Below, piece by piece: positions 10,778-30,441 of a stretch of 39,190 nucleotides of DNA. Position 1 is the first letter of the stretch. Each line of letters opens with the position of its first letter. The notes under the pieces are model-generated. The model saw only the letters and a list, made by a program, of their open reading frames with translations. It was not told the origin of the DNA and made no database searches. The stretch lies in the NCBI GenBank assembly GCA_021777335.1, contig JAJYDT010000018.1, positions 1 through 39,190 on the forward strand, read 5' to 3'. The stretch comes from Pseudomonadota bacterium (lineage in GTDB: Bacteria; Pseudomonadota; Gammaproteobacteria; Acidiferrobacterales; Acidiferrobacteraceae). A program made the position numbers and the translations under genes.

Positions 10778-11209
10778 TCATCTGGCAAAGACGCGGTCGG
10801 GTGAGGAAAAAGCCTTGAACTCAAGTGCGTTACCGCTCGGATCAAGCAGGAACACGGTCGCTTGCTCACCTGGCTTGCCGAGAAAACGCATACCTGGCTT
10901 GCGCAAAAACGGGACATCCGCTGACTGCAGACGTTCAACCAACGCGCTCCAGTCTTTCATAGTCAGGATAACCCCAAAGTGCGGTATCGGGATATTCTCG
11001 TCGTCTACTTGGTTCAGCAGCTCTACTTTATGCCCGGCAGGGCACAGATGTGCGACGATCTGGTGCCCATAGAGATCGAAATCGACCCAGGTCTCGGCGC
11101 TGCGCCCCTCCGGGCAGCCGAGGATGCCAGTATAGAATGTCCGTGTCCGGGCGAGGTCATTGACTGGAAAAGCGAGGTGAAAAGGGCGCAGGGGTGGCGT
11201 GTTTGTCAT
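10778..11209 (-). CDS. VOC-superfamily protein (glyoxalase/dioxygenase-like)
   Basis: This 143-residue protein has the paired beta-alpha-beta-beta-beta modules of the vicinal oxygen chelate fold. The first module has Pro-Phe-His-Leu-Ala-Phe-Pro-Val (H11, probable metal ligand), Arg-Thr-Phe-Tyr-Thr-Gly-Ile-Leu-Gly-Cys and Gly-His-Gln-Ile-Val-Ala-His. The second ends with Leu-Leu-Asp-Pro-Ser-Gly-Asn-Ala-Leu-Glu-Phe-Lys, where Glu is a probable metal ligand. The substrate is unknown. The ATG at 11209 overlaps the PiuC-like stop as TGATG, indicating coupling; an upstream in-frame ATG at 11224 is less likely. It probably acts with the neighbouring oxygenases. Confidence 0.8.
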   Translation of the reverse strand: MTNTPPLRPFHLAFPVNDLARTRTFYTGILGCPEGRSAETWVDFDLYGHQIVAHLCPAGHKVELLNQVDDENIPIPHFGVILTMKDWSALVERLQSADVPFLRKPGMRFLGKPGEQATVFLLDPSGNALEFKAFSSPDRVFAR

Positions 11210-11883
11210 CAGAGCTCGCTCCATCGTCGCACAAGATTGATGTAGGCCTGGTTCACCCTGATCGTCTCGGGAGCGTCTGGCGCACGCTCAAGCAGCGTCT
11301 CGCGCGCGAGGTAGAGGTCGTACAAAAGTTCCCTCTGTCCTGGGTCGCGCACCATGCTCTGTACCCATGTGACGGCGACCAGCCGCTCGCCAGAAACGAC
11401 CGCATTGACCCGATGTAGCCGGGAAGCGGGGTACATGACCCCGTTGCCCGCTGTGAGCTTGACCGTCTGCGTTCCGTACGCCGTATCAATCACAAGTTCC
11501 CCGCCCTCGTATTCATGGGGCTCACTCAGGAAGAGCGTGATTGCGATATCGCTGCGGTAAGGCGCGCCATCCGCGCTCATGATAGGGTCATCGAGATGGG
11601 TTCCGTAGGCCATGCCTGCTGTATAGCGGGCATAGTGAGGGGTGGCAACAGCAAGTGGCAGAGCGGCGGCGCGATACGCCGGATGCCGCACGAGATTGCT
11701 CATTACGAGGCCGTCAAGCTCCGCGATCCAGGTTGGCCGACGGTCAATCTCCTGGTTCCGCTTGACACGTTGCGCCGCAGCTCCCGCAGTGAGTCGCCCG
11801 TCGACGAAAGTGCCCTGGGCGATGAAGCGCCGCGCCGCGGCGAGCTGCTCGCGTCCAAGGACCCCAGGAAGCGTCAGCATCAT
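11209..11883 (-). CDS. PiuC/YbiX-like Fe(II)/2-oxoglutarate-dependent dioxygenase
   Basis: This 224-residue protein matches PKHD-type hydroxylases of the PiuC/YbiX group. Near the start it has Phe-Val-Asp-Gly-Arg-Leu-Thr-Ala-Gly, the family's hallmark. Iron ligands are visible as His96-x-Asp98 in Tyr-Gly-Thr-His-Leu-Asp-Asp and a distal His157 in Arg-Leu-His-Arg-Val. The 2-oxoglutarate-binding arginine is R167 in Gly-Glu-Arg-Leu-Val-Ala-Val-Thr-Trp. Length is normal for the family. Homologues usually sit next to TonB-dependent siderophore receptors; here there is no receptor, and it sits among redox genes. It follows the TrpD2-like gene by 38 bases. Confidence 0.85.
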   Translation of the reverse strand: MMLTLPGVLGREQLAAARRFIAQGTFVDGRLTAGAAAQRVKRNQEIDRRPTWIAELDGLVMSNLVRHPAYRAAALPLAVATPHYARYTAGMAYGTHLDDPIMSADGAPYRSDIAITLFLSEPHEYEGGELVIDTAYGTQTVKLTAGNGVMYPASRLHRVNAVVSGERLVAVTWVQSMVRDPGQRELLYDLYLARETLLERAPDAPETIRVNQAYINLVRRWSEL

Positions 11884-11921
11884 GGGATCACCGTCTTGAC
11901 TGTAGCGTAGACGGGGTGCAT

Positions 11922-13052
11922 TCAGTGCGCCGCAGAGAATCGCGCAAGTGCGCCCCCGTCATCCAGGCATGTACGCACCATTGCCGCCGCAGTTCGTGGC
12001 GAGTCGTGGCGGCCAAGATGGAACAGACACATGGCGGCCGCGTAAATAAGCGCATCGCGTGTCGGGCCTGCCGCGCCCTGCAATGCGGCCAACCCTTGTT
12101 CAGCCGCCGCGGCAGCAACTAATGTCGCGTTGAAAGGCTTTTCCGCATCCGTAGGCTCACGTAGCCCATCTATCTGCTCCGGCAGAGATGCCGCCCGCAC
12201 GGTTTGTACGATTCCAAGATCCTCGGGATGGATTTCAAGGCTCTGTTCTTCGCCTTGGTCGTGGTAATAGACGAACGCGCCCATTTGCCGCAGGGATGGA
12301 ATGACACCACCCTCAACTCCGCGCACCATAAGCGCCGAATTGAACCCCGCGCGCCGCGCGAGCAGGGCGTAGATCCGGGGATAGGGTTTGTGGACATAGC
12401 CTGTCAGGAGATGGGTCTTGATTCGGCCACGGAGGGGACCGAGCAGGGTCTCCACGGTGCTAAGCGCAGGGCGCTTAACGATCAATTCGCGCAAAGGGAC
12501 GAGTGCGTGGAGCCTTGGGCAGAACGCGTTTTGATCGACGTACGCCCAGCCAATCGATGGGTCCGCGACACGTAGCGCAGCTGCCTGTGGACTAAGATCA
12601 ACCGGTATGCCGGCAGCGGCAAGCACCTGGCGGTGCGTAACACCATGTTTTGGTCCGACGCACAAAAGACCGTGTGAAACTGATGGAACTCCGGTCGCGG
12701 CGAGCACGGCAGGTAAAAATGGCGACGGCGGAAGGCTGCGCAGGTAACCATCATAGGGATCGGCGACGTCCATGATCTCATCCACCGCCGCGATAACCTC
12801 TGTCGTTTCTGCGCGCAACGCATCAAGCAGGCCGAGATTTTCTTCGTCAGTCTCGCGCTTCATACGCAGGGCGATCAGGAAGATGCCCGCTTGGACCGGA
12901 TCCACCTGACCGCTCAGGACAAGGCGCATGGCCTCGGCCGCCTCGGCCTGTGAGAGATCTTTGCTAAGCTCAGGTCCAGTCGCAATCCTGCCCAGAATCT
13001 CGCGCATAACCTCTGTCGCCGCCCGTCCGAGATTCAGTCTGTTGGCTGTCAT
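11922..13052 (-). CDS. TrpD2/YbiB-like protein (anthranilate phosphoribosyltransferase fold)
   Basis: This protein of about 376 residues has the helical N-terminal domain and alpha/beta core of the anthranilate phosphoribosyltransferase fold. The Gly-Thr-Gly-Gly-Asp PRPP loop of true TrpD is replaced by Asp-Pro-Tyr-Asp-Gly-Tyr-Leu-Arg, although Gly-Val-Pro-x-x-x-His-Gly follows as in TrpD. There are no trp genes nearby. This fits the TrpD2/YbiB group, described as nucleic-acid-binding proteins rather than tryptophan enzymes. The ATG at 13052 overlaps the Rieske stop as ATGA; the next ATG upstream (13058) is also possible. Its meaning in a redox operon is unclear. Confidence 0.75.
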   Translation of the reverse strand: MTANRLNLGRAATEVMREILGRIATGPELSKDLSQAEAAEAMRLVLSGQVDPVQAGIFLIALRMKRETDEENLGLLDALRAETTEVIAAVDEIMDVADPYDGYLRSLPPSPFLPAVLAATGVPSVSHGLLCVGPKHGVTHRQVLAAAGIPVDLSPQAAALRVADPSIGWAYVDQNAFCPRLHALVPLRELIVKRPALSTVETLLGPLRGRIKTHLLTGYVHKPYPRIYALLARRAGFNSALMVRGVEGGVIPSLRQMGAFVYYHDQGEEQSLEIHPEDLGIVQTVRAASLPEQIDGLREPTDAEKPFNATLVAAAAAEQGLAALQGAAGPTRDALIYAAAMCLFHLGRHDSPRTAAAMVRTCLDDGGALARFSAAH

Positions 13053-13381
13053 AAACATCCCGCCTCTGTCTGAAGGGAGATAAGGATATCATCGCCCTCC
13101 ACGCGCACCGGGTAAACCATGAGCGCGTCCTCAGCAGGTCCATCCAACACTGCACCCGTGCGCACGCTGAAGCGGCTACCGTGGAGCGGGCATTTCACGG
13201 TCTCGCCCTGAAGCGCGCCGGTGCAAAGCGACACGTCCTCGTGGGTGCATAGCCCGCCAACAGCATAATAGGTACCTTTAATGTTGGCGATCAGGATGTG
13301 ATGTGTATTTAATCGGACACACCACATTCGCCCGTGACCGATATCCCGAGCGTGTGCTACCACGAAAAAATCCGGGGTCAC
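13049..13381 (-). CDS. Rieske-type [2Fe-2S] ferredoxin
   Basis: This is a 110-residue single-domain Rieske protein. Cluster ligands are in Cys-Thr-His and, 16 residues later, Cys-Pro-Leu-His, giving the C-x-H...C-x-x-H signature. It lacks a signal peptide, so it is cytoplasmic and of the dioxygenase-ferredoxin/NirD size class. The likely start is GTG 13381, seven bases after the TauE-like stop and preceded by GGTGAG. A longer ATG-initiated form from 13438 would overlap the upstream gene by 50 bases. Its stop overlaps the start of the TrpD2-like gene. It is a plausible electron carrier from the ferredoxin-reductase fusion to an oxygenase. Confidence 0.85.
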   Translation of the reverse strand: MTPDFFVVAHARDIGHGRMWCVRLNTHHILIANIKGTYYAVGGLCTHEDVSLCTGALQGETVKCPLHGSRFSVRTGAVLDGPAEDALMVYPVRVEGDDILISLQTEAGCL

Positions 13382-13388
13382 GAATGGC

Positions 13389-14105
13389 TCACCGACCGAG
13401 GAAAAGCGAAAGACCACCCGCCATGATGACCCAGGCAACTACGTGGCGAAAGCGCCTTTCCGATACGCGCAGATGCAGTTGATTGGCACGCCACAGGACA
13501 ACGATCAGGAGCGGCGCTGAGAACGCCATGAGACGCACAGTCCCAGCGCCAAGAACCCCATATGCGGCGTAACCCGTGAGCCTCAGGATGTTCAACGCAA
13601 GAAAGAACGCAAGCGCGTAGTTGCGCACAACTGTCTTGTCCTCGAACGTGCCGAGCAGGCGCGTCATAGCAATCGGTCCGCTGATCCCAAAAAGCGCCTG
13701 GGAGGCCCCCGCTAGCGTGTCGAAGACGCGCGCTGCTCTTCGCCCTATGCGCACATGACCCGGGGCCACCACGAGCAATACGCCGACAAGCGTAACCATG
13801 GTAGCGAGCAGTTTCCGGAAGAGCACGGGTGATATGTGGTAGAAAAGTACAGTGCCTGCGATACCGCCGGCCACCGCGTAGAACAACATCCAGCCAAGGA
13901 ACCGCAGGTCCACTGTTTTTGGGGAACGTATCAAGCCAATCGATCCTACGAGGATCTGCGGCATCGCAGAGTATACGACAAGTATCTTGGTGCTGAGCAG
14001 GAAGCGTAGAACGGGCAGCATCAAGATGGTGCCGCCCAGTCCGAATACAATCTCGAACGAATACGTGAGCGCAGCGACGGCGGTCAGTACGATCACGGTT
14101 GGCAT
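13389..14105 (-). CDS. TauE/SafE-family membrane permease
   Basis: This 238-residue integral membrane protein has about seven to eight hydrophobic helices and the two glycine-rich repeats of the TauE/SafE family (Phe-Gly-Leu-Gly-Gly-Thr near residue 25, and Leu-Phe-Gly-Ile-Ser-Gly-Pro after the central loop). Members export sulfite, sulfoacetate or other small anions. In a dsr-type sulfur oxidiser, sulfite efflux is an attractive role, but the substrate is not shown by sequence. ATG 14105 is preferred over TTG 14120. It lies 31 bases after the 2OG oxygenase gene and 7 bases before the Rieske gene. Confidence 0.8.
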   Translation of the reverse strand: MPTVIVLTAVAALTYSFEIVFGLGGTILMLPVLRFLLSTKILVVYSAMPQILVGSIGLIRSPKTVDLRFLGWMLFYAVAGGIAGTVLFYHISPVLFRKLLATMVTLVGVLLVVAPGHVRIGRRAARVFDTLAGASQALFGISGPIAMTRLLGTFEDKTVVRNYALAFFLALNILRLTGYAAYGVLGAGTVRLMAFSAPLLIVVLWRANQLHLRVSERRFRHVVAWVIMAGGLSLFLGR

Positions 14106-14136
14106 TGGGGCGCGGGACAAAGAAATTCATAGCGGC

Positions 14137-14712
14137 TCAGGTGAAACAGATCCATGTCGTCGCGATGTACTTGACACCTTGATTGAGCGTCACGCCACGG
14201 TGATTGTGTGTCCAGAAAGGCGGAAACAGCAATAGGTTGCCTTCCACCGGTTTGACTTTGACCCCCTGGGCCAGAAACTCGGTTTCTCCGCCTGGTCCAT
14301 CGACCGTGTTTAGATACCAAATGGCCACCAGCTGGCGCTGACTGAAGACGCCGGGTCCCGAATCGACATGCCAATGATAGAACTCTCCCGGGCGTGTGCG
14401 TTGCATATTGTAGCCCATGTCTTTGAATGAGTTCGCCGCAAAGTAGGGGAATATCTCTGCGAACCGGCTGAATGCGGATGCAAGCGAGCGCGCAAGCGTG
14501 CCGTCGATGTCTTTCCAGTCCTTGCGTCCACTGATACGGAGGTCGGTGGATCGCTTGATATCCGACGCTAAAGCCCCCTGCTGGCCGATCCGTCCCTCGT
14601 ACTGCTGTTCCGGGCTAGCTTCGTAGCGGCGTATCATTTCATGACACACGTCTGCATTGAGCGCGCGCTCGATTTCGTATATGAAGCTGCCGGGCCTCAC
14701 CTCTTGAATCAT
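14137..14712 (-). CDS. 2OG-Fe(II) oxygenase superfamily protein
   Basis: This 191-residue protein carries the double-stranded beta-helix motifs of prolyl-4-hydroxylase-like enzymes. The first iron-ligand pair is His115-x-Asp117 in Tyr-His-Trp-His-Val-Asp, and the distal histidine is in Trp-Thr-His-Asn-His-Arg-Gly. The usual arginine that holds 2-oxoglutarate may be replaced by lysine (Gly-Val-Lys-Tyr-Ile-Ala-Thr-Thr-Trp). The ATG at 14712 keeps it clear of the divergent gene at 14807; longer starts exist up to 14829 but would overlap it. It is the first gene of the redox operon. The substrate is unknown. Confidence 0.78.
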   Translation of the reverse strand: MIQEVRPGSFIYEIERALNADVCHEMIRRYEASPEQQYEGRIGQQGALASDIKRSTDLRISGRKDWKDIDGTLARSLASAFSRFAEIFPYFAANSFKDMGYNMQRTRPGEFYHWHVDSGPGVFSQRQLVAIWYLNTVDGPGGETEFLAQGVKVKPVEGNLLLFPPFWTHNHRGVTLNQGVKYIATTWICFT

Positions 14713-14806
14713 GTCTGACAGTATCCGGTCTCGCCCGCGTCGATTATCATATGCAGGCTGCGAGCGGTCAACGCGGCGCATGGACATTGTCTGGGTGGTG
14801 AGTGCG

Positions 14807-15184
14807 ATGCAGGTTCTGCTGTTCATCATTGAGCGCGGCGGATATCCCGTGTGTGCCGACCGGTTCTCGCGCCTTGGTTACCGCGTGATCATCGAGCGTT
14901 CGATGCGCAAGGCCTTGGCTCTGCTCAAGTCGGCCAGCCCCGACGTCGTCGTTGCCGAATTCAATTTTGGCCCGCGCTACGGAGACCGCATCAGCAACCT
15001 CGAGCCGCTCTTCGCACGCATCGAGACCGGTTTTCGTGCGACGCGGGTGATCGCGCTCGCCGACGCGGAGTACTGGCATCATCTTGACACGCTGCGTAAG
15101 CGTTTTCCCATATTCGATACGTTGATGCATCCCGTCACCGAAGACCGCCTCGTTGATTGCGTTAATCGTGCCGCCCAGCCCTGA
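14807..15184 (+). CDS. Degenerate receiver-domain protein (pseudo-receiver)
   Basis: This protein of about 125 residues looks like a stand-alone response-regulator receiver: an N-terminal hydrophobic strand, then Gly-Tyr-Arg-Val-Ile-Ile-Glu-Arg-Ser and Ser-Pro-Asp-Val-Val-Val-Ala-Glu-Phe-Asn-Phe-Gly. The phosphoacceptor position reads Glu51 where Asp is expected, and the acidic pair after strand 1 is missing. It therefore probably cannot be phosphorylated normally, and Glu may mimic the active state. The start at ATG 14807 follows GGTGAG; earlier in-frame ATGs exist. It diverges from the redox operon across a ~95-bp gap, so it may share or control that promoter. No output domain is present. 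Confidence 0.55.
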   Translation: MQVLLFIIERGGYPVCADRFSRLGYRVIIERSMRKALALLKSASPDVVVAEFNFGPRYGDRISNLEPLFARIETGFRATRVIALADAEYWHHLDTLRKRFPIFDTLMHPVTEDRLVDCVNRAAQP

Positions 15185-15909: not shown

Positions 15910-16464
15910 TCAGGCGTCGACCAGTCGCGTGTCTTTCAGTTCAACCGACTCGAAGGTGTCGCGCAACCACCACATCACTTTCTGCGCAATGAGGCGACTC
16001 TGATTTTCTACGGCAGGTCCCCGCTGCAGGGAAGAGAGGATGAGTATGAGGTTTATTTCAGTGGGCGTGTAGTGCCGAGCGAGTACCGTGAGTGCTTCTG
16101 GCCGCCCCGGTCGGACATTTGGAAGTGTGAGTGCCATGATCTGCACGCGTTGTATTTTGATGTGTGAGAATGCCGACCATAGGTGGTTCCGCGTTTCTTT
16201 TGCAACATAGTCACTGACAAAAAGGCCTGCCTCCTCGACCGCAGCGATCACCCCGGGCTCGATCCCGGGGTGATCGGCAAAAAAGTCGAGGGCGGGGCAA
16301 TACCCGAGCCGTTCCTTGAGAACAATGTCATGAATCCGCTCCGCAGCTGCGGATCCGGCGTTTGCTGCAAAATCACCTAAACGGTCACGCACAAGGCTCA
16401 AAGACACGCGTACGCGGATGGATACCGAGGCCTTCACAATGGTGATAGGCCGGGCCGTGCTCAT
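15910..16464 (-). CDS. Hypothetical protein, coupled to dsrS
   Basis: This 184-residue protein is soluble and mostly helical, with no recognised domain. Its ATG (16464) overlaps the dsrS stop as ATGA, so translation is very likely coupled to dsrS. Visible features are a single Cys in Gly-Tyr-Cys-Pro-Ala, an Asp-His-Pro-Gly-Ile-Glu-Pro-Gly turn, and a C-terminal Met-Trp-Trp-Leu-Arg-Asp helix. It ends the Sel1-AAA-VWA-dsrS operon. The tight coupling suggests a shared role with DsrS. The function is unknown. Confidence 0.65.
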   Translation of the reverse strand: MSTARPITIVKASVSIRVRVSLSLVRDRLGDFAANAGSAAAERIHDIVLKERLGYCPALDFFADHPGIEPGVIAAVEEAGLFVSDYVAKETRNHLWSAFSHIKIQRVQIMALTLPNVRPGRPEALTVLARHYTPTEINLILILSSLQRGPAVENQSRLIAQKVMWWLRDTFESVELKDTRLVDA

Positions 16465-17603
16465 GAGGCCTGCGCAAGTGCCGTAAGCTGTTTCAGAATC
16501 ACCTCGGTGACCGGGGCGAGTTTCTTCTGAAGGAGGGTCCCGGTCGCCGTCGTGTGTGCGAGAATGTCTGTCACCACCGACTCCGTAATCGCCCCAAGCG
16601 TAAGGAGCGCTGATAGCTCCGCGGCAAGCGCGGGTGCTTCACGCAGGACCGCTCTTGCCGCCTGCGAACCATGGACAGACGACCCTTCGACGCACGCTGC
16701 CAATGCCTCACGCTCGATTACCTGGACGTCACGCCCAGCTACCCGTTGCGGTCCCACGCAACGGAAATAGGAACCGATGGTATCAAGCGCAACTGCGATT
16801 ACGTCCTGATCCATGGGGCGCCGGAGAACTCTGCTTGCGGCCTCTATGAAGGTCTGCCCGGGAGCCCTCAGCGCACGTAGGGCCAATATGGCGACAGGAT
16901 TGCCGGCATCTGCAAGAACAGCAAGCATCTGTTCGTAATTATCAAGATCCGCACGTGCCGGCAGTGGTTCAGGTAGATTCTCGGGCATTGCCTGCAGAAA
17001 TCCCACGCAATAAGCGCTTTGCTTCGCCCCCGTCTCCCAGAGACGGCGGCGTGCACCCTCCGTGATTAATCCCGGTTGTAGAATGAGGCGAACGGTTTCC
17101 ATGACCACCCGGGCGTCGGTCTCGAACGGTAGATGTTCGACGAGGTGCATAGCAAGAACAGGGCCCATGGTACCGCTACGCACCGGCTCGCGCTCAAGCA
17201 TGCGACGCGCATGTTCCGAAGTTGGCGCGATCCACCATACCCTCCGGGCGAGTTCGTCAGTGAGACCGGGCGCCCCGGCCACGGCAGTTACGGCCTCAGG
17301 CTCGCCCAACAGGAGCAGTTTGTCGAGTCCCTCGTCACGCCGTTGGCCCATGCGCGTCCAGCGTGCTAGATGCAGAGGGTAACCTCCGGGGGATCCGAGC
17401 ACGACACCGGAAATGAACTCGCGAACGTATCGGACGTATTGCGTCCGGCGGCAGTTTGGCGCGAGCGTCACCCGCGCCTCACGCACAGTGCCACCATCGA
17501 GCGAGAGCCCGCGCACCTCCATGGCTTCGGCGTCAATACGGATGGCGTAAACGTTTGTGAGCAGGACGTGCAGTCGCAGGCTGTCTTCAGTGGAGAGTTC
17601 CAT
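16461..17603 (-). CDS. dsrS: DsrS, sulfur oxidation accessory protein
   Basis: This 380-residue soluble protein has the pattern I recall for DsrS: a start like Met-Glu-Leu-Ser-x-Glu-Asp-Ser-Leu-Arg-Leu, then Leu-Gly-Ser-Pro-Gly-Gly-Tyr-Pro, Trp-Thr-Arg-Met-Gly-Gln, Leu-Leu-Leu-Leu-Gly-Glu-Pro-Glu-Ala-Val, and a Leu-Thr-Asp-Glu-Leu-Ala-Arg-Arg segment. DsrS is the last gene of the Allochromatium dsr operon and has no known enzymatic motif; its exact role is unsettled. Start ATG 17603 lies 20 bases after the VWA gene; a longer start at 17651 would overlap that gene. Here it is separated from the main dsr operon by about 11 kb and embedded in an AAA/VWA operon. The name rests on recalled similarity. 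Confidence 0.75.
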   Translation of the reverse strand: MELSTEDSLRLHVLLTNVYAIRIDAEAMEVRGLSLDGGTVREARVTLAPNCRRTQYVRYVREFISGVVLGSPGGYPLHLARWTRMGQRRDEGLDKLLLLGEPEAVTAVAGAPGLTDELARRVWWIAPTSEHARRMLEREPVRSGTMGPVLAMHLVEHLPFETDARVVMETVRLILQPGLITEGARRRLWETGAKQSAYCVGFLQAMPENLPEPLPARADLDNYEQMLAVLADAGNPVAILALRALRAPGQTFIEAASRVLRRPMDQDVIAVALDTIGSYFRCVGPQRVAGRDVQVIEREALAACVEGSSVHGSQAARAVLREAPALAAELSALLTLGAITESVVTDILAHTTATGTLLQKKLAPVTEVILKQLTALAQAS

Positions 17604-17623
17604 GTGAGTCCCGCGCAGTAACG

Positions 17624-18859
17624 TTAATTCAGTTGAATCCTCCGGCCCCACGGCACCTGGGATTTCCCCTTAACGAGCCAGAGCACAGGGAACGCTGGGG
17701 GTTGCTCCGGGAACATACCTTGGCCATCAGTGAAATAGACAAGCACATCGGGCGCGCGATCCTGACGTTCGGCCCAGACAAACGGGGGGACAAAACTCGT
17801 TCCGCCTCCATCTTTGAGGTTGGACGGCAGAATGAGTTCCTCCCAGGGTTCACAGACCCATGGCCCGTCCGTGGCAAGTACAGTGTCACAGGCGTGCAGG
17901 ACAATACGGGCACGCAACTGGCCCTTCAAAGCACTGAGCTCGGATACGAAGTCGCTCATCTCGGTAGTGCTGACAGAACCGCTTGTATCCAACACGACGA
18001 ACAGCTCTACCCCCGCGCTCCGAAGACTCGGCATAATGGCGGCACCTTCGCGTTTGGATGGCCGCATGAAGCTATAGTCATCCCGCCCGAGGCTATTGAG
18101 GTAATGCGCAAGGACAGTCCGCCACGGCAGCTGTGGTTCGTGAAGGTGGTCAATGAGGCGGGCGAGCGTCCCCTGAAATTTTCCTGCTTGGCGTGCCTGT
18201 TGCGCAGCGCCCGCCATCCGCTGTTGCCACTGGAGTCCTAGCATCTCGCGTTCCTCAGGCGAGAGTGCAGGTGGACGATCCTTGCCCCCTGTATTGGCTT
18301 CGGGCTCGTCATGAGCACCACACGGCTGAGGAGAATCTGGGCACATGCCCCGTCGTTCGTCGTCATACACGTGCTCGTCGAGGGTTTCATCCTCGCTTTC
18401 GTCGCTCACGAGTGGGTAGATTTCTTCCGCGGTCATACCCAAAAATTCCATAAGTAATAGGCTGCCTGGTGGCGGCTTGAGCCCGTCTTCCATGAGCAAT
18501 GGGTTGATAGCAAGGTCACAGGCAATGTCCCAACGGTGCTTCACACGATGCCGCCTGCGAGCAAAATGCAGAAGCGCACAGTGCAGCGCCTCGTGTGCTA
18601 AGACAAACTCGGTCTCTGCAGCGCTCAATGCCTCGATGTAGGTCACATTGTAGTAGAGCGCGCGCGCGTCGGTTGCAACGGTCTTGCACCAAGACGGGTC
18701 AGCAGCGACGAGCGGCAAGCGTAATGCAAGGGCACCAAGGAACGGTTTTTCGAGAATCAGGCGCGTACGCGCCGCGCTTAGCTTGGTTTCAATACCCGGC
18801 ATGGAATGTGGTGTGCCCATCAGGATGGGAGTCGGGTGCCTGGCTGTTTCAGCGCCCAT
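17624..18859 (-). CDS. VWA-like protein with putative metallopeptidase domain (DUF2201-type)
   Basis: This 411-residue protein has two domains. The N-terminal part carries His89-Glu-Ala-Leu-His93, a zinc-peptidase-like H-E-x-x-H motif, followed by a His/Arg-rich helix. The middle is acidic and low-complexity (about residues 150-195). The C-terminal part is a von Willebrand A-like domain with the metal-binding Asp291-x-Ser293-x-Ser295 (Val-Leu-Asp-Thr-Ser-Gly-Ser). Such proteins are usual partners of MoxR ATPases and help mature or remodel metalloenzymes. ATG 18859 overlaps the AAA gene by 11 bases. It precedes dsrS, so a role in activating Dsr components is an attractive inference. Confidence 0.85.
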   Translation of the reverse strand: MGAETARHPTPILMGTPHSMPGIETKLSAARTRLILEKPFLGALALRLPLVAADPSWCKTVATDARALYYNVTYIEALSAAETEFVLAHEALHCALLHFARRRHRVKHRWDIACDLAINPLLMEDGLKPPPGSLLLMEFLGMTAEEIYPLVSDESEDETLDEHVYDDERRGMCPDSPQPCGAHDEPEANTGGKDRPPALSPEEREMLGLQWQQRMAGAAQQARQAGKFQGTLARLIDHLHEPQLPWRTVLAHYLNSLGRDDYSFMRPSKREGAAIMPSLRSAGVELFVVLDTSGSVSTTEMSDFVSELSALKGQLRARIVLHACDTVLATDGPWVCEPWEELILPSNLKDGGGTSFVPPFVWAERQDRAPDVLVYFTDGQGMFPEQPPAFPVLWLVKGKSQVPWGRRIQLN

Positions 18860-19904
18860 CGGAGCCGAATACCATGACGTCCGCAACGGATTTAGCCCAT
18901 ACTGAGAATTGTGGCAGTTCGAACAGGCGGGCCCCCACAGCGCGGTGCATGTCGGACACGAGCATAACCCCCATCTCGCGTTGTGGGAATCGCCCAGCAT
19001 AGTCGAGGATACGCCCGTGGGTCTCCGCAGCATCGCCATGTCCGTTCACACGCAAGGCGCGATTGACAAGCGCGCACGCAACCGCATACTGCAGGTCGAT
19101 CTCTTGTGGGACAGGAACCTCATCGCCACGGAGGATGGCGTCGATGTCAGGAAGGTTGTCAAGGTTGTCAATAAATGCTTTCAGCTCGACGCCTGCTGCC
19201 GGCCCGACGCATGCCTGCAGTGCCGCCAGCAGCAACCCGTCATGGTCTTCAAACTTCTGCAACGCACGGTGCGCGAATTCCCAGGAACGTGGCGTCGGAA
19301 ACGCAACCGGATTATGGGCAGGATCGAAGTCGAACAGAAGCTCCGGCCGGAATCTGAGAAACGCAATGACTCGTTCATCCAGGCGGTGGGCATGGGCCCA
19401 AGCGACCCAGTCGTCGAGATGGACATCAAGTGTGAGGTGCGCAAATCGATTGGCGAGGGGTGCCGGCATACTGTAGGTGACCCCACGGTCCCCTTGCCGG
19501 TTGCCTGCCGCGAAGATGGCCCACCCAGGTGGCACGCGGTACTCGCCAAGCCTGCGGTCCAGGATCAGCTGGTAGGCGGCAGCGGAGACAGTCGGTGCTG
19601 CGGAGGTGATTTCATCAAGAAACAAGATCCCGGTTGCCCCGTGGCGCGCGGAATCCGGTAAGAGTGCCGGCACCGCCCATTCGACCAGCGCGCCGTCGCG
19701 AAACGGGATGCCGCGCAAATCGCTCGGTTCCATCTGCGATAAACGTACATCTACGACAGCTGCACCATGTCGCGCTGCGAGCTGCACGACGATCTGGGAT
19801 TTCCCAACGCCCGGTGGTCCCCACACCATAATCGGTGTGTGGATCCCACTGCTGGCACCCAGGAATTCGCGCTCGAGGATAGTGGAAAGTTCCGCAGGGC
19901 GCAC
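18849..19904 (-). CDS. MoxR-family AAA+ ATPase
   Basis: This 351-residue ATPase has Walker A Gly-Pro-Pro-Gly-Val-Gly-Lys-Ser at 29-36, Walker B Ile-Leu-Phe-Leu-Asp-Glu at 93-98, and sensor 1 Ala-Ala-Gly-Asn-Arg near 133. This is the MoxR/CbbQ/GvpN arrangement. The start is GTG 19904, because an in-frame stop lies just upstream. It overlaps its VWA partner gene, the classic pairing for MoxR chaperone modules that activate enzymes (methanol dehydrogenase, Rubisco, others). It lies upstream of dsrS, so the likely client is part of the sulfur oxidation machinery, though this is inference. Confidence 0.88.
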   Translation of the reverse strand: MRPAELSTILEREFLGASSGIHTPIMVWGPPGVGKSQIVVQLAARHGAAVVDVRLSQMEPSDLRGIPFRDGALVEWAVPALLPDSARHGATGILFLDEITSAAPTVSAAAYQLILDRRLGEYRVPPGWAIFAAGNRQGDRGVTYSMPAPLANRFAHLTLDVHLDDWVAWAHAHRLDERVIAFLRFRPELLFDFDPAHNPVAFPTPRSWEFAHRALQKFEDHDGLLLAALQACVGPAAGVELKAFIDNLDNLPDIDAILRGDEVPVPQEIDLQYAVACALVNRALRVNGHGDAAETHGRILDYAGRFPQREMGVMLVSDMHRAVGARLFELPQFSVWAKSVADVMVFGSDGR

Positions 19905-19976
19905 AGGATACTACCGGAGATGGGCCCGCAGCGGGACCACCGCGCCCCATATTTCCCAGAGGATCTGTGGCACCGA

Positions 19977-20405
19977 CTACGCTCCGTTGTCGGTCTCGGC
20001 GCGCAGCCTTTGGGCTTCAGCCTCATTGCGCTCAACGCCGAGGCCCTGGGCATACATCATGGCGAGCGTCGTACGGGAACCCTCGAGCCCCTGTGCTGCG
20101 GCGCGGCGGAACCACTTGGCGGCCTCGGCCGGGTCATGCCGGGTGCATTCGCCCTGAAGATACATGAAGCCAAGACCGTGTTGCGCGAGCGCAAAATTCT
20201 GTTCTGCCGCAGCCTGCATCCATGCGACCGCCTTGGCGCAATTGGTGACCATGCCGAGTCCGATCTGCGCCATAATTGCCATCCGGAACTGGGCCTCTGG
20301 ATTACCGCGATCGGCAAGTGGCGACAGAAGCTGCATTGCCCGCACAAAGTTCTTGGATTCAAAGGCGGCGATGCCGCTCGCAAGATCCATATCAACATCG
20401 GTCAT
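19977..20405 (-). CDS. Sel1-like tetratricopeptide repeat protein
   Basis: This 142-residue protein contains about three Sel1-type helical repeats, with the pattern Ala-x-x-x-Leu-Gly-x-x-Tyr/Met-x-x-Gly and Ala-Ala-x-Trp-Phe/Met-x-x-Ala-Ala-x-Gln. It has no signal peptide and is likely cytosolic. Sel1 repeats form protein-binding solenoids, so it may act as an adaptor for the AAA/VWA module that follows 72 bases downstream. It appears to be the first gene of that operon and diverges from an unknown gene on the plus strand. Confidence 0.8.
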   Translation of the reverse strand: MTDVDMDLASGIAAFESKNFVRAMQLLSPLADRGNPEAQFRMAIMAQIGLGMVTNCAKAVAWMQAAAEQNFALAQHGLGFMYLQGECTRHDPAEAAKWFRRAAAQGLEGSRTTLAMMYAQGLGVERNEAEAQRLRAETDNGA

Positions 20406-20608: not shown

Positions 20609-20628
20609 TTTGGTAACCTTTGGTAACC
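20609..20628. promoter_or_regulatory. Tandem perfect repeat TTTGGTAACC x2
   Basis: TTTGGTAACC occurs twice in direct tandem (20609-20618, 20619-20628), and each copy contains the palindrome GGTAACC/GGTTACC core. It ends 6 bases before the ATG of the plus-strand gene at 20635 and lies in the divergent region facing the Sel1-AAA operon. The 10-bp phasing suggests cooperative binding of a regulator; it leaves no room for a normal Shine-Dalgarno. Confidence 0.5.
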
Positions 20629-20634
20629 ATAGAT

Positions 20635-21222
20635 ATGACCATTATCAGCAAAACCCGGTTGGCCGTCGTATTGAAGACACGCTGGACGAAAAAAGGCCCC
20701 CGGACACTCGGGGATCTTGCTGGGGTGGTCGGGTTCAATATCTGGCGAATTGCCCAGGAAACCTATAAGCACATGGAGGTTGACGCGTTCCGGTTCACGT
20801 CGGATATGCAAGTTACCACGGTCATGACCGAGCTCATCGCGTTCCTTGTGCAAAGCGCGGACCGAATGGTGCACCAGAAACTTGGCGAAGCAGACCGAAG
20901 CACGTTCATCAACGCCATTGCCCTGCATCTTGCGAAGACGATGGAAAACAACCAGGTGGACCTGTTTGGCCCGGGGGAGTACCGAAAACCGTTCATCGAC
21001 ACACTGAACGCGCGTGCGTCGGACTATGCCGAGTACCACTATGGCGATGACGGCCCAAGCTATGCGTATCTCCGCTATTTTGGTGACCGCGTCGCCGAGG
21101 CTATGGCCGAGATGGGCAACCAGTGGGTTGTTGAGCACATCATGGAGCTTGAAGCACCTGACATGCTAAAATTCCTGAAGAAGCTCGTAAATGACGTAGT
21201 ACTGATTGGGCTGCCTCAATGA
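20635..21222 (+). CDS. Conserved hypothetical protein
   Basis: This soluble 195-residue protein is largely helical. It contains Lys-Lys-Gly-Pro-Arg-Thr-Leu near the start, a methionine/aspartate-rich helix, a Leu-Phe-Gly-Pro-Gly-Glu-Tyr-Arg-Lys-Pro-Phe segment, and a Tyr-Tyr-Leu-Arg-Tyr-Phe-Gly-Asp-Arg-like helix. I do not recognise the family. ATG 20635 is preferred over an in-frame TTG at 20620. It converges with the 347-residue gene, and the two ends overlap by 7 bases. It lies between dsrS-associated and siroheme genes, so an association with sulfur metabolism is likely but unproven. Confidence 0.65.
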   Translation: MTIISKTRLAVVLKTRWTKKGPRTLGDLAGVVGFNIWRIAQETYKHMEVDAFRFTSDMQVTTVMTELIAFLVQSADRMVHQKLGEADRSTFINAIALHLAKTMENNQVDLFGPGEYRKPFIDTLNARASDYAEYHYGDDGPSYAYLRYFGDRVAEAMAEMGNQWVVEHIMELEAPDMLKFLKKLVNDVVLIGLPQ

Positions 21223-22259
21223 GGCCGTGCGGGTTCTGGCAGCAAGGCCTCAATTTCAGCACGCGCCGTCACGGGGTTTTTTTTATAGGCCGCGAGCAAC
21301 CGGTGCGCGACATCGAACCAGTGAGTTGCGCCATGTGCCACAGCGCGACGTAACGGAGCAAGGTTGGCGTTTTGCACCCAGTCCTTGTACGCGTCCTGAA
21401 GATCTGTAAATAGGGCGCGCCGCAATCCATCAAGATTGGCAAAATAGAAGTGCAGCAGCCCATGATCGTTGCGTTCAAGCAGGCCGGGCAGCGTAGATCG
21501 GCAGTCTGCAAGGTGGTCACGGACAGATCGGACAACCAGTTCTGCGCGTGACCGCGCAAGCTCCAAGACCATGACGCGCCAGGATTCTCCCAACGACCGA
21601 TCAATCAGTCCTTCGCCGAGCTCATGTAGAATCATGAGATCGAGTGCCCCGCTTGTCATCTGTTCGAGCGCCGCCTCGTCGTTTCTGAAACCATATGAAG
21701 TCAGGGCGCGCTGCATTGCATTGTCCTGTTTGTGCCAGCGCCATTCATCAATCTTTTCCCAGACAAATCGCCGGGCCGACTCTTGACGGGCAAAGATCGT
21801 GCGGCCACTGAGCATCGCAGGGGGCGCTGCAAGTTCACGGGCGTATTCGCACGAGGAGCACAGGATCGTAAACCCATCGCGCTCCTCACAACTCAACAGA
21901 TTCCCTAGGAAAAACAAAGGTTTATTGAAACGTCCGTAACCTGCGCTGTAGACGTATCCGCGGGGTACGAGCTCCCTATTGATCGCTTCACTATCAAATG
22001 GATCGGCAAATCCCGAATCGACGGGTACCGGGGTCATTGGCAATGACTCAAGGTCTGCCCACATTTGTTCGCGCGCCGTTAGCCATACCCCAAGGTCGTC
22101 CTGAGGCACCGTCGCGAAATAAGACAGATCGTGTTCCCACCGATAATACTCGCGCATTTTGAGGAGATAAGTGCATAGGGTGTAGTCGCCAGCATGTTGC
22201 GCATCGGAGATGTCGCAATTTGTCTGGACCGCTCCTAAGATCTCAGGAAGAGTGGGCAT
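21216..22259 (-). CDS. Hypothetical protein, likely Sfum_1244 family
   Basis: This soluble 347-residue protein has a well-defined N-terminus with Cys-Asp-Ile-Ser-Asp-Ala-Gln-His-Ala-Gly-Asp-Tyr-Thr-Leu-Cys-Thr-Tyr and Met-Arg-Glu-Tyr-Tyr-Arg-Trp-Glu. It also has a central Cys-Ser-Ser-Cys pair and a His-Glu-x-Gly-Glu motif (Ile-Leu-His-Glu-Leu-Gly-Glu) that could bind metal. The pattern fits what I remember of the Sfum_1244 family, found in sulfur-metabolising bacteria and of unknown function. It lies about 80 bases downstream of the S24-like gene on the same strand, so the two may be co-transcribed. A palindrome GTACCGGTAC lies just upstream at 22273-22282. Confidence 0.6.
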   Translation of the reverse strand: MPTLPEILGAVQTNCDISDAQHAGDYTLCTYLLKMREYYRWEHDLSYFATVPQDDLGVWLTAREQMWADLESLPMTPVPVDSGFADPFDSEAINRELVPRGYVYSAGYGRFNKPLFFLGNLLSCEERDGFTILCSSCEYARELAAPPAMLSGRTIFARQESARRFVWEKIDEWRWHKQDNAMQRALTSYGFRNDEAALEQMTSGALDLMILHELGEGLIDRSLGESWRVMVLELARSRAELVVRSVRDHLADCRSTLPGLLERNDHGLLHFYFANLDGLRRALFTDLQDAYKDWVQNANLAPLRRAVAHGATHWFDVAHRLLAAYKKNPVTARAEIEALLPEPARPH

Positions 22260-22339: not shown

Positions 22340-22651
22340 CTAGAGGTAATGCTTGCGGTGTACCCGCCGCGTGCCCGCTCTTTGGACTACGATCCCTCGA
22401 AGCGTATGGTCAGGACCCCATTCAACCGTAGGGTAGTGGTCGTTGAGCGGCTTGAGCAGGCGCTTGTCCCCGTCATGGACAAGCTGTCTCAGGATCACCT
22501 TGCCGTCTGTTTCGGCAACGACATAGGCTTGATCTGGAGCTGTTCGCGCCGGTTCAATAACGACAACGCATCCATCCCAGAACTCAGGTGCCATGCTGTC
22601 TCCCAGCACCTGAAGTGCAAACGGCTCAAGATCGCCACAACCTTCCGACAT
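22340..22651 (-). CDS. Stand-alone S24/LexA-like peptidase domain, probably inactive
   Basis: This 103-residue protein corresponds to the C-terminal half of LexA/UmuD/phage repressors, with no helix-turn-helix. The nucleophile motif is present (Gly-Asp-Ser19-Met) and is followed by the usual Asp-Gly and hydrophobic strands. The catalytic lysine position in Val-Ile-Leu-x-Gln-Leu is Arg55. Self-cleavage is therefore doubtful and the domain may act as a dimerisation or sensing module. Start ATG 22651 follows AAGGAG. It diverges from cysG across a 178-bp region and probably shares a transcript with the Sfum_1244-like gene. A link with the SOS response is not supported. Confidence 0.75.
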   Translation of the reverse strand: MSEGCGDLEPFALQVLGDSMAPEFWDGCVVVIEPARTAPDQAYVVAETDGKVILRQLVHDGDKRLLKPLNDHYPTVEWGPDHTLRGIVVQRAGTRRVHRKHYL

Positions 22652-22748: not shown

Positions 22749-22782
22749 GTATGATCATACATGCTCCGGGCGATACCGCCCG
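22749..22782. promoter_or_regulatory. Palindrome and hairpin between S24-like gene and cysG
   Basis: GTATGATCATAC at 22749-22760 is a perfect 12-bp palindrome, followed at 22767-22782 by CGGGCG-ATAC-CGCCCG, a 6-bp perfect stem. Both lie in the divergent region, 50-80 bases upstream of the cysG ATG. The first is a candidate operator and the second may be a leader hairpin of cysG. Neither is a recognised LexA box. Confidence 0.4.
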
Positions 22783-22829
22783 TGACGTCCCCTAAATCGG
22801 GGCGCTACTGGGATTATATACCGCTAACT

Positions 22830-24263
22830 ATGGATTTTCTGCCAATCTATCTGAATGTACGCGGACAACCATGCCTCGTTGTGGGCGGTGGTGAAGTGGC
22901 CGCACGCAAGGTCGACTTGCTGCGAAAGGCGCAGGCCGAGGTCAGAGTACTCGCACCTGATCTTGGACCCACACTTTCAAAACGCGTGAGGGAGCACGAC
23001 ATCGCGCACATCGCGCGGTGCTTCGAGGATAAAGATGTTGAGGGTGCGTCAGTAGTGATTGCAGCAACGAATGACGAGGCCATAAACAGACTGGTCGCAT
23101 CCGCAGCGAAAGCCCGGCGTATCCCCGTAAATGTTGTTGACCAGCCAGAGCTGTGCTCGTTTATCATGCCCTCGCTGATTGATCGCAGCCCCGTGCTGAT
23201 CGCAGTCTCGAGTGGTGGGGCGTCGCCTGTGCTCGCGCGCCTCCTTCGGACACGTCTCGAAACACTGATCCCGGCATCTTACGGCCGCCTCGCGACGCTG
23301 ATGGCTGGATTCCGTGAACAGGTAAAGCGACGCTTCTCAGGGTCATCGGAGCGCCGCGCATTCTGGGAGAAGGTGCTTCAGGGGTCGATTGCGGAGATGG
23401 TCTTCAGTGGGCGTGACCGTGCTGCCCGGGTCGCCATGGAGGAAGCGTTGCGGTCGAAAGAGGGATCCGGAATCGGGGAAGTCTATCTCGTGGGCGGAGG
23501 CCCGGGGGACCCTGATCTGCTCACATTCCGTGCGCTCAGGCTGATGCAGCAAGCGGATGTCGTGGTGTACGACCGCCTGGTTTCTCCCGAAGTTCTCGAT
23601 CTTGTGCGCCGGGATGCGCAGCGGATCTATGCGGGAAAGGAGTCGAAAAACCACACGCTGCCACAGGAAGGCATTAACGAACTTCTGGTACGCCTCGCAC
23701 GTGAGGGCAAGCGGGTTGTGCGTCTCAAAGGTGGAGACCCGTTCATATTCGGTCGCGGCGGTGAGGAAATCGCGACGCTCGCGGAACAGGGTATTCCCTT
23801 CCAGGTTGTGCCGGGTATCACCGCTGCGGGTGGCTGCGCCTCGTATGCGGGCATCCCGCTTACGCACCGGGGTTATGCACAGTCAGTCATTTTCGTGGCT
23901 GGCCAACTTAGAGATGGCAGCGTGAACCTGAACTGGAAGGCCATCGCTCAACCCCAGCAGACGATCGTGTTCTATATGGGTTTACAGGGGGTCGACATCA
24001 TTTGCCGTGAGCTGCAGCACCACGGACTCGCGTCATCAATGCCGGTCGCCCTGATCCAGCAGGGTACAACCCGCAGTCAGCGCGTGCTGACCGGCACGCT
24101 CGCAACCCTGCCTGATCTCGTGCGAACATCACACGTGCAATCACCAACGCTTATCATCGTCGGTAATGTTGTGCGGTTGCAGAGCCAGTTTGCTTGGTTC
24201 GATCCTGACAGCGTCTCTCAAGCGGCTGGGGTTGCCCCAAACGCACCTGCAAGTCCAGCATAA
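22830..24263 (+). CDS. cysG: Siroheme synthase CysG (three activities)
   Basis: This 477-residue trifunctional enzyme converts uroporphyrinogen III to siroheme, the cofactor of DsrAB. The N-terminal dehydrogenase/ferrochelatase half has an NAD-binding Gly-Gly-Gly-Glu-Val-Ala, Asp104 in Val-Val-Asp-Gln-Pro-Glu and Ser128 in Ser-Ser-Gly-Gly-Ala-Ser, matching the numbering of known CysG. The C-terminal SAM methyltransferase has Val-Gly-Gly-Gly-Pro-Gly-Asp-Pro and Arg-Leu-Lys-Gly-Gly-Asp-Pro-Phe-Ile-Phe-Gly-Arg-Gly-Gly. ATG 22830 is chosen over the longer 22761 frame because it fits this numbering. Proximity to dsr genes suggests it serves the reverse sulfite reductase. Confidence 0.95.
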   Translation: MDFLPIYLNVRGQPCLVVGGGEVAARKVDLLRKAQAEVRVLAPDLGPTLSKRVREHDIAHIARCFEDKDVEGASVVIAATNDEAINRLVASAAKARRIPVNVVDQPELCSFIMPSLIDRSPVLIAVSSGGASPVLARLLRTRLETLIPASYGRLATLMAGFREQVKRRFSGSSERRAFWEKVLQGSIAEMVFSGRDRAARVAMEEALRSKEGSGIGEVYLVGGGPGDPDLLTFRALRLMQQADVVVYDRLVSPEVLDLVRRDAQRIYAGKESKNHTLPQEGINELLVRLAREGKRVVRLKGGDPFIFGRGGEEIATLAEQGIPFQVVPGITAAGGCASYAGIPLTHRGYAQSVIFVAGQLRDGSVNLNWKAIAQPQQTIVFYMGLQGVDIICRELQHHGLASSMPVALIQQGTTRSQRVLTGTLATLPDLVRTSHVQSPTLIIVGNVVRLQSQFAWFDPDSVSQAAGVAPNAPASPA

Positions 24264-24402: not shown

Positions 24403-25056
24403 CTAGGAGCGGCGCGAGACGTCACGTGATAGACCCTGCGCCACTGCCATAACCGCGGCCTCGACACGGGAGCTCACCTTGAGTTTACGTAGGATAGATT
24501 TTACGTGCAATTTCACGGTGCCATCCGTGATTGCGAGCGCACGCGCAATGGCCTTGTTGCTTGATCCTGCCGCAAGGTGTTTCAGAATCTCGTGCTCGCG
24601 CGGTGTGAGCTCAGCAATGAGAGTATGTGGTCCTGCGCGCTCCGCGCCACTTACGATACGCGCGAGGGTGTCTGTAAGCTGTGCGGATACTACTGTTTCC
24701 CCTGCAACCGCGCGCTTGAGTGCCACCACGAGATCGTCAGGTTCAATGTCCTTTAAAAGATAGCCCTGAGCGCCACCGCGCAGGGCCTGGGCAAGATCCC
24801 GCTCGTGCGGGCTCGTCGTCACCATGATAATACAGGCACGGACCCCTTCCCGGCGTAATGACGCGAGGACCTCAATGCCGTCCATTGCCGGCATACAGAG
24901 ATCAACCAGGATAACATCCGGCGCAGTTTCACGTGCCACTCGGACACCTTCTGCGCCGTCACTTACGGCTGCAATTACCTCAATACCTCGGCGGACAAGT
25001 AGTGCTGTCAAGCCCTCGCGAAATAATGTATGGTCGTCGATAAGCAGGACGCGCAT
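24403..25056 (-). CDS. NarL/LuxR-family response regulator
   Basis: This 217-residue protein has a receiver domain with the acidic pair Asp7-Asp8 (Leu-Ile-Asp-Asp-His), phosphoacceptor Asp52 in Val-Asp-Leu-Cys-Met-Pro, and the conserved Lys in Leu-Leu-Lys-Asp-Ile. A LuxR-type HTH follows (Leu-Thr-Pro-Arg-Glu-His-Glu-Ile-Leu, Asp-Gly-Thr-Val-Lys-Leu-His-Val-Lys). ATG 25056 lies two bases after the kinase stop; ATG 25074 would overlap it. It is the partner of the NarX-like kinase. Its position between cysG and the dsr operon makes both candidate targets, by inference. Confidence 0.92.
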   Translation of the reverse strand: MRVLLIDDHTLFREGLTALLVRRGIEVIAAVSDGAEGVRVARETAPDVILVDLCMPAMDGIEVLASLRREGVRACIIMVTTSPHERDLAQALRGGAQGYLLKDIEPDDLVVALKRAVAGETVVSAQLTDTLARIVSGAERAGPHTLIAELTPREHEILKHLAAGSSNKAIARALAITDGTVKLHVKSILRKLKVSSRVEAAVMAVAQGLSRDVSRRS

Positions 25057-25058
25057 GT

Positions 25059-26672
25059 CTATGAGCCGTCCCATGCCGCAGACGCTGTACTTGTCTTCCC
25101 GGTACCAGATTCATGACGCGTGCGGAACGTTAACAGAACCCGCGTCCCTTCCCCGGGTTCGCTTTCGACGCTGAGTGTTCCACCGAGGTAATGCGCGCGC
25201 TCCTGCATAATCCTTAGCCCAAGCCGCTCCCCAGGTAATGCCTCGGTCTCCTGCCGGCTGATGCCAAGGCCGTCATCTTCGACCAACACGCGGCAGACCC
25301 CATCGTCGTCGCTGCGCAGTAGGACACGCACGTGGTGAGCCTTGCTGTATTTTCGGATATTTGCGAGCGCCTCCTGGATGATGCGTAGCACTTGAACTTC
25401 AGCTGTTGGATCGAGGGTAAAACCGCGTGACTCGTTTTGTAGGAATGCCGCGATCCCACTATTCTGACGAAAATACTCCATTGCCCCTTCGATAGCCGCA
25501 ACGAGGCCCGGCAGGCCCATGGGTGCGCGGCAACGCAGCAGAAGTTCCCGTAACTCGCGGTACGCGTCATCAAGGTTTTTCTTAATCTTGTGAAGCTCCT
25601 TCTGTGCAGGAATGTCACCGCGCTGCTGCAATGTTTCACCAAGGACAGCCACTTGCATGCGCAGACTTGCAAGACTCTGGGCAAGGGAATCATGCAGATC
25701 ATTCGCGATCATCTGCCGTTCCTGGATGAGCAAGAGCCGCTGCGATTCAATATCAAGCCGTGTCTTTTCGACTGCCATGCCAAGCTGCCTCCCAATAGTC
25801 GCAAACAGATCTCGCATGTCCTCGCGGGCAGCGATCGCGACATTATCCATGAACAACCAGTAACCGCCGAGATTTTTTCCTTGGTAACGTAACGGGACGA
25901 AGACTGAAGCCATCGGCTTTCCATCGAAAAGGGGGTGATGTATCTCGTGACGAATGTCGATACCATCATCTCCATCAGCGACCTTAGGAATGGTCGTCAT
26001 ATCTCTGGAAAGCCGCGATGCGTCAGGCCCTGCGCTCGCGACAAGGCGCATATGCCCGTCGTTTGTCACAAGGTGAACACTCGCGGCACGCGCGCTGACC
26101 ACCTTCATTAGTGTCTTCAGAAACCGGGCGAGTAATTCATCGAGATCGTGAACAGCATTGAGGCTTGCCACGACGTCATAAAGGATTTCTAGGGATTGAT
26201 TCTTCTGGGCCAGAGAAGCCGTCTGGTCGCGAACCTTCTGTTCCATGTTCTCGGCAAGCGTCTGCAGCTTGTCGCTTAGCTGGTTTATGTCGGTGGCAAG
26301 TAGGGAGAAATCACCTTGCTCCGACGGACTGATCCGTGCGCCAAGGTCACCGTCGCGCATACGTAGCGCCCAGCCGCGCAGATGCGTCAGCGGTTCGTGA
26401 AGCCGGTGCTGGATACCAAACAGCATGGTGGCAATGATTACTGCTAGCGTTCCAAGCAGCACGAGGATAACAACACCGTGTGTATCCGTCCTGCGTGTAA
26501 TCCCCGCATAGCCAATTAGGAACACGATCATGCCGATCATGGCGAGTGGACGGACAAGCGGTTTCCAGAACATCCGGCCAGTTTTGTGCTGCCAGCCCCT
26601 GGCCGGTGGGATCATCCAGGCCGCGGTCCTGGTACGGATCGCATTACGACTGGTGTCGGGTGATGGGCCCAT
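25059..26672 (-). CDS. NarX-type sensor histidine kinase
   Basis: This 537-residue membrane kinase has two adjacent hydrophobic helices (about 40-58 and 67-86) with almost no periplasmic sensor loop, so it does not sense nitrate as NarX does. A HAMP linker follows (about 88-140), then a GAF domain (about 165-300), the HisKA_3 box Glu-Arg-Gln-Met-Ile-Ala-Asn-Asp-Leu-His327, and an ATPase domain with Asp-Asp-Gly-Leu-Gly-Ile near the C-terminus. The GAF domain is probably the sensor, possibly for redox state or a small ligand. ATG 26672 has a strong GGAGGTG site. It is transcribed with the NarL-type regulator. Confidence 0.9.
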   Translation of the reverse strand: MGPSPDTSRNAIRTRTAAWMIPPARGWQHKTGRMFWKPLVRPLAMIGMIVFLIGYAGITRRTDTHGVVILVLLGTLAVIIATMLFGIQHRLHEPLTHLRGWALRMRDGDLGARISPSEQGDFSLLATDINQLSDKLQTLAENMEQKVRDQTASLAQKNQSLEILYDVVASLNAVHDLDELLARFLKTLMKVVSARAASVHLVTNDGHMRLVASAGPDASRLSRDMTTIPKVADGDDGIDIRHEIHHPLFDGKPMASVFVPLRYQGKNLGGYWLFMDNVAIAAREDMRDLFATIGRQLGMAVEKTRLDIESQRLLLIQERQMIANDLHDSLAQSLASLRMQVAVLGETLQQRGDIPAQKELHKIKKNLDDAYRELRELLLRCRAPMGLPGLVAAIEGAMEYFRQNSGIAAFLQNESRGFTLDPTAEVQVLRIIQEALANIRKYSKAHHVRVLLRSDDDGVCRVLVEDDGLGISRQETEALPGERLGLRIMQERAHYLGGTLSVESEPGEGTRVLLTFRTRHESGTGKTSTASAAWDGS

Positions 26673-30323: not shown

Positions 30324-30373
30324 ACCCTACCTCCTGCACGGCGATCGGTGTTTCCACATGCCCGCGTGCTGAA

Positions 30374-30410: not shown

Positions 30411-30441
30411 TTGTGGCTTGGTATTTACCGCCTCTCGGTCG

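Follow-up and report, generated by a model that had tools for sequence, protein, structure and literature searches.

The window analysed here, a 39,190-nucleotide stretch of DNA, is contig C32 of a draft genome (2.57 Mb, 97.8% complete) from the gammaproteobacterial family Acidiferrobacteraceae, and on its minus strand, at 15910-20405, lies a string of five genes that includes dsrS, a sulfur-oxidation operon gene whose product has stayed an orphan for around two decades. Genes were called from the open reading frames (ORFs) of the window and annotated with Pfam and NCBIfam profiles. The string opens with a Sel1-repeat protein of 142 amino acids (19977-20405; Pfam Sel1, E 4.6e-22) and continues with a 351-aa MoxR-type AAA+ ATPase (18849-19904; Pfam AAA_5, E 9.1e-9), a protein that joins a metallopeptidase-like DUF2201_N domain to a VWA domain (17624-18862; Pfam E 2.2e-42 and 4e-20; hereafter VWA), the 380-aa DsrS (16461-17603) and a 184-aa protein, p184 (15910-16464), which matched no Pfam or NCBIfam model. 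Sel1 and MoxR are 72 bp apart and VWA and dsrS 20 bp apart, and p184 overlaps the dsrS stop in a 4-bp ATGA; MoxR and VWA either overlap by 14 bp, if VWA starts at the ATG at 18862, or lie 28 bp apart, if it starts at 18820 (a start at 19039 was dropped in favour of these two). By gene spacing the arrangement is operon-like, and the tightly packed five-gene minus-strand string of the original prediction was confirmed, with every gene inside the interval. Its placement of DsrS outside the dsr operon is correct for this genome, yet a dsr cluster (dsrN, P, O, J, L, K, M and C and a DsrE-family gene, assigned with Pfam; 28860-38925, minus strand) sits on the same contig. dsrAB is found on a separate contig of the source genome (dsrA at G000:C62:4097-5281).

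Neither Pfam nor NCBIfam models name the DsrS ORF, and the 380-aa protein is DsrS by the gene order of its orthologues in named genomes. Searching named genomes with a profile built from 44 homologues gave at least 439 relatives; the best 80, none of them from Allochromatium vinosum, served as named loci. Orthologues directly follow dsrN-dsrR in six of these (L170, from Thiohalocapsa halophila, and L172, L173, L178, L129 and L180); in L170, in L173 and in the loci of the Lamellibrachia and Escarpia tubeworm symbionts (L172, L178) the homologue comes right after the series dsrC-M-K-L-(J)-O-P-N-R. This is also the place of dsrS in the Allochromatium vinosum gene table (Alvin_1265, after dsrN-dsrR), in which the protein carries no KEGG orthology (KO) number (PMC10892978). 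In that species dsrS closes the dsr operon and has an additional promoter, its function being left unresolved (PMC3368242), whereas in the window it lies within the MoxR-VWA string. Because homologues begin at M17, aligning only from residue 16-17 of a 396-aa ORF that starts at a GTG, that start is probably wrong and the ATG at 17603 is taken to begin the protein. At one locus (L050, genome G061) DsrS homology falls inside a 732-aa ORF right after VWA, a divergent or fused form.

An AlphaFold2 (AF2) model of DsrS predicts an alpha-solenoid with an N-terminal beta-meander (predicted local distance difference test (pLDDT) 91.9, predicted template modelling score (pTM) 0.89). A profile search of the PDB gave no credible match; the best hit of a fold search (VIA Z 7.3, root-mean-square deviation (rmsd) 4.4, 113 aligned) was tied with many solenoids, and the best Foldseek hit had an E value of 0.25. 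Alpha-solenoids are a common protein-binding architecture. Since no specific structural relative stands out, it is from this general architecture that a scaffold or adaptor function is suggested; the adaptor role previously suggested for DsrS agrees with the predicted fold to that extent.

The distribution of DsrS was compared with that of its neighbours in 143 genomes of the class, one per family, which were searched for DsrS, dsrA, DUF2201_N, rpoB, aprA and Rubisco. Members of the DsrS-linked VWA subfamily score 620-733 bits with their own profile (apart from two lower-scoring copies that are misframed or truncated), while no other DUF2201 protein scores above 183 bits; because PF13203 alone mixes subfamilies, the proteins of G106 and G076 were reassigned outside this one by profile score and C-terminal tail. 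One dsrA-negative genome that has dsrL (G067) was counted as dsr-positive. DsrS and VWA occurred together in 45 genomes, DsrS alone in 2, VWA alone in 1 and neither in 95 (Fisher 1.4e-33), and the same table within the 53 dsr-positive genomes reads 44, 2, 1 and 6 (p 8e-6). On a tree of rpoB and rpoC from 100 genomes, parsimony puts the number of trait changes at 18-21, and a Pagel test of DsrS against VWA returned a likelihood ratio (LR) of 88.3 (p 3e-18), above those of dsr (62), aprA (51.2) and Rubisco (30.4) against VWA. As the ratio is highest for DsrS, MoxR-VWA tracks DsrS best, and shared ancestry is insufficient to account for the association. The earlier claim had been staked on the pair not being equally common in organisms without dsr genes, and VWA was present in 1 of 90 dsr-negative genomes of the class as against 45 of 53 dsr-positive ones. 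In the sole VWA-only genome (G064), MoxR-VWA stops about 100 bp short of a contig end, at the spot expected to hold dsrS. In another dsr-positive genome (G057) dsrS is reduced to its 3′ half, and Sel1 abuts this remnant (L049, 9436-10519); neither MoxR nor VWA was found in the 20-kb stretch around it, and the genome search detected no VWA elsewhere. This state is consistent with joint loss of MoxR, VWA and the 5′ half of dsrS in one deletion, a scar that would amount to a natural knock-out in a dsr-positive genome. We regard a functional link between DsrS, MoxR and VWA as close to certain.

The neighbours of dsrS are also not random, which they would be had the predicted association been fortuitous: in 25 of the 45 families that have both, VWA is the next gene upstream and shares the strand of dsrS, and among the named loci, whose selection favours the window's type, it is upstream in 46 of 80. 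Sel1 lies upstream of dsrS in 15 of the 40 families with enough flank, also where MoxR-VWA is elsewhere, p184 lies directly downstream in 13 of 44, and the siroheme synthase gene cysG lies within 1.5 kb downstream in 10 of 41 families and 11 of 64 named loci. In the window, cysG (22761-24263, plus strand; NF007922, E 1.8e-196) is divergent and 2.4 kb past Sel1; elsewhere it is found directly 3′ of dsrS or dsrS-p184, and complete Sel1-MoxR-VWA-DsrS-(p184)-CysG strings occur, for example in L122 and G127. Across genomes, then, dsrS adjoins cysG, or dsrN, which has been given a role in siroheme amidation (PMC3368242), or MoxR-VWA. At solitary MoxR-VWA loci MoxR adjoins VWA in 22 of 24, and neither Sel1 nor cysG was found near any of the 24; it is DsrS, and not the pair, that these two genes accompany. 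The neighbours of the solitary pairs, examined for a hidden client gene, encode GGDEF, S4, thioredoxin, HDOD, MobB, MoeA, Hsp90 and NUDIX proteins; a client among them was rejected and the arrangement read as housekeeping synteny. In seven families (L078-L099) MoxR-VWA lies near moeA and mobB, of the molybdenum cofactor, a synteny with Hsp90 that is probably inherited.

The MoxR protein has a Walker A motif GPPGVGKS (residues 29-36) and a Walker B motif LDE (96-98), both kept in about 35 of 38 homologues. It passes the Pfam AAA_5 cut-off (35.9 bits against 22) and falls below that of AAA_3, the classical MoxR profile (14.5 bits against 27), and among solved chains, midasin and NorQ (9qh4/9qhd) are nearest to it in sequence, the NorQ match being weak (E 1.4e-5); the AAA_3 shortfall is consistent with a lineage closer to NorQ than to classical MoxR. 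In the partner protein, the DUF2201_N domain scores 146 bits against a cut-off of 23.2. No PDB entry matched this protein by sequence; a fold search with its model recovered a VWA fold at the C-terminus (VIA Z about 12, rmsd 2.6, 128 aligned), the VWA domain alone, with the DUF2201_N part barely covered. All residues of its metal-ion-dependent adhesion site (MIDAS; DxSxS-T-D: D278, S280, S282, T341 and D365) are present in 44 of 44 homologues, as are P390, G392, R394, Q396, L397 and the final residue N398 of its C-terminal tail, PWGxRxQLN. Together with the VWA profile, this tail motif offers a marker for the DsrS-linked subfamily. In NorQD, the complex depends on the C-terminus of NorD, whose finger enters the ring pore and whose MIDAS is a proposed binding site for the client (PMC13036017).

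We consider it probable that the string encodes a dedicated remodelling or maturation machine serving the reverse dissimilatory sulfite reductase (rDsr) pathway and, with a confidence just above even, that this is a client-dedicated MoxR AAA+/VWA machine of the NorQD/CbbQO kind, in which DsrS is a scaffold or client adaptor specific to the sulfur pathway and DsrAB the most likely client. MoxR would form an ATPase ring, and the VWA protein would use its VWA domain and its invariant C-terminal tail to dock on it; the client would be held by the MIDAS site, the DsrS solenoid or both, and ATP turnover would open it so that a cofactor could be inserted, replaced or repaired. The likeliest client would be the reverse sulfite reductase DsrAB with its siroheme-type cofactor, ranked first because dsrS adjoins genes of siroheme synthesis (cysG) or amidation (dsrN) or MoxR-VWA. 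That the client is indeed DsrAB, and the task the loading or repair of its cofactor, is a tentative proposal; equally tentative is the fuller form of it, in which gammaproteobacterial sulfur oxidisers would have in DsrS-MoxR-VWA a dedicated AAA+ machine that puts the siroheme-type cofactor into reverse DsrAB or replaces it there, DsrS being the client adaptor.

Several observations weigh against the machine and client proposed here. MoxR-VWA lies away from dsrS in 20 of the 45 families, and cysG serves other enzymes too, making its neighbourhood indirect evidence. One genome (G045) has DsrS and no VWA, and G127 keeps the full module without a dsrA or dsrL orthologue; in this 100%-complete genome the block Sel1-MoxR-VWA-DsrS-p184-CysG is accompanied by genes for a DUF6866 protein and a 200-aa protein, p200 (L073). 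dsr occurs without the module in three small SUP05-like genomes (G039, G097 and G142; so labelled from their size and gene content) and in G102, G110 and G070. Outside the class, none of the 47 dsrA-positive genomes in a sample of 249 of the phylum, whose Dsr may or may not be oxidative, has DsrS or any DUF2201 protein. Because dsr exists without it in these lineages, the module cannot be a strict general requirement for DsrAB or DsrMKJOP assembly. The earlier claim that it may serve one or the other is partly supported. The module is an accessory of the gammaproteobacterial pathway, including the former betaproteobacterial one, and no universal Dsr factor. With many dsr-positive lineages lacking it, the module is no less likely to serve in repair or conditional activation than in obligatory assembly.

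The machine might be real and its client another part of the pathway, such as DsrMKJOP, DsrL or DsrEFH/DsrC, with an action on the assembly or activity of a redox complex like that of RavA-ViaA. This MoxR/VWA pair is reported to act on fumarate reductase (PMC10585395); moreover, DsrS follows the whole dsr set, and dsrMKLJOP lies on the window contig. The neighbours of dsrS nevertheless favour siroheme genes (cysG, dsrN) over dsrMKJOP, and DsrL is intact in genomes without DsrS, so that we judge a client of this kind unlikely.

Less likely still is ATP-dependent proteolytic quality control, in which MoxR would unfold damaged Dsr proteins, the HExxH motif of DUF2201_N degrade them and DsrS select the substrates. 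DUF2201_N carries the annotation putative metallopeptidase, and its HExxH is largely retained, H80 in 44 of 44 homologues, yet the motif is not strictly conserved: H76 is present in 39 and replaced in 5, and E77 is present in 41 and changed to Q in 3. The known MoxR/VWA pairs, moreover, remodel and do not degrade their clients (PMC13036017, PMC4660213). Because the MIDAS and C-terminal tail are invariant and HExxH is not, remodelling is favoured over proteolysis, the conservation pattern better suiting a NorQD-like mechanism than a protease.

A similarly improbable explanation is shared ecology, by which MoxR-VWA would serve another part of sulfur lithoautotrophy, such as Rubisco activation or the adenosine-5′-phosphosulfate (APS) pathway, and merely travel with dsr. 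CbbQO is a MoxR/VWA Rubisco activase, and VWA associates on the tree with Rubisco (LR 30.4) and aprA (LR 51.2). Only 1 of 22 Rubisco-bearing dsr-negative genomes has VWA, however, VWA is independent of aprA among dsr-positive genomes (p 1.0), and dsr predicts VWA both within Rubisco-positive (p 5e-12) and within aprA-negative genomes (p 5e-10); these conditional tests reject Rubisco and AprA as the reason for the co-occurrence. That the operon arose by local chance, without any functional link, has a negligible probability, for despite the housekeeping genes (Hsp90, MoeA, MobB, NUDIX) that flank the pair where it is apart from dsrS, adjacency recurs in 25 of 45 families, co-inheritance is near-perfect even between unlinked genes, and the joint loss in G057 affects all three.

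Other features of the window recur with dsrS or dsr. A protein of the DUF6866 (Sfum_1244) family (21216-22259, minus strand) occurs in 38 of the 143 class genomes, of which 36 are dsr-positive (the exceptions are G127 and G093), and often lies in the dsrS neighbourhood, a second uncharacterised protein that travels with dsr. Divergent from it is the gene of the 200-aa protein (20620-21222, plus strand), which has no Pfam match and stands near dsrS in at least 17 families. Genes for a YbiX Fe2OG dioxygenase, a TrpD-like protein, a Rieske ferredoxin and a second Fe2OG protein (11209-14829, minus strand) recur near dsrS or DUF6866 in other families. Adjoining cysG is a short LexA/UmuD-like S24 peptidase (22340-22651, minus strand), as also near cysG in G019, G035 and G131. 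A NarL-type response regulator and a histidine kinase (24403-26672, minus strand) adjoin the dsrN end of the dsr cluster and again stand next to dsrN-dsrR in G110 and G123, making the pair a candidate dsr regulator.

A phylogeny-controlled link to one MoxR/VWA subfamily gives DsrS partners, a class of mechanism and a set of mutants to construct. It points to a dedicated machine with which sulfur-oxidising Gammaproteobacteria would assemble or mend part of the reverse sulfite reductase pathway, and raises the question of how siroheme enters DsrAB and why some lineages need no help. If the cofactor proposal holds, DsrS gains a function. A search of open-access papers returned no report joining MoxR with dsr or dissimilatory sulfite reductase; on the cofactor proposal, DsrS-MoxR-VWA would be, to our knowledge, the first enzyme-specific chaperone of a sulfite reductase.

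Several known systems resemble the proposed one. RavA/ViaA and CoxD/CoxE are likewise MoxR/VWA pairs, reported to aid metalloenzymes or respiratory complexes (PMC10585395, PMC4240915). Closer in domain content are the other MoxR-adjacent DUF2201 proteins (in G106, G076, G381, G343, G318, G373, G361 and G259), which share the Pfam domains and gene pairing but score 33-183 bits where the subfamily scores 620-733, end in different C-terminal tails and occur without DsrS. Going by literature descriptions, we know of no DUF2201_N domain or DsrS in RavA/ViaA or CoxD/CoxE. The Rubisco activase CbbQ/CbbO is reported to follow the same AAA+/VWA logic of client remodelling (PMC4660213), whereas the window-type pair follows DsrS and dsr, not Rubisco. 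In NorQ/NorD, through which cytochrome c nitric oxide reductase receives its FeB, a MoxR-type AAA+ protein is again paired with a MIDAS-bearing VWA partner whose C-terminus is important (PMC13036017), and NorQ is a weak PDB sequence match of the window MoxR; the window system differs in a putative DsrS-type third subunit and in a client that would belong to the rDsr pathway, and perhaps in the DUF2201_N domain of its VWA protein.

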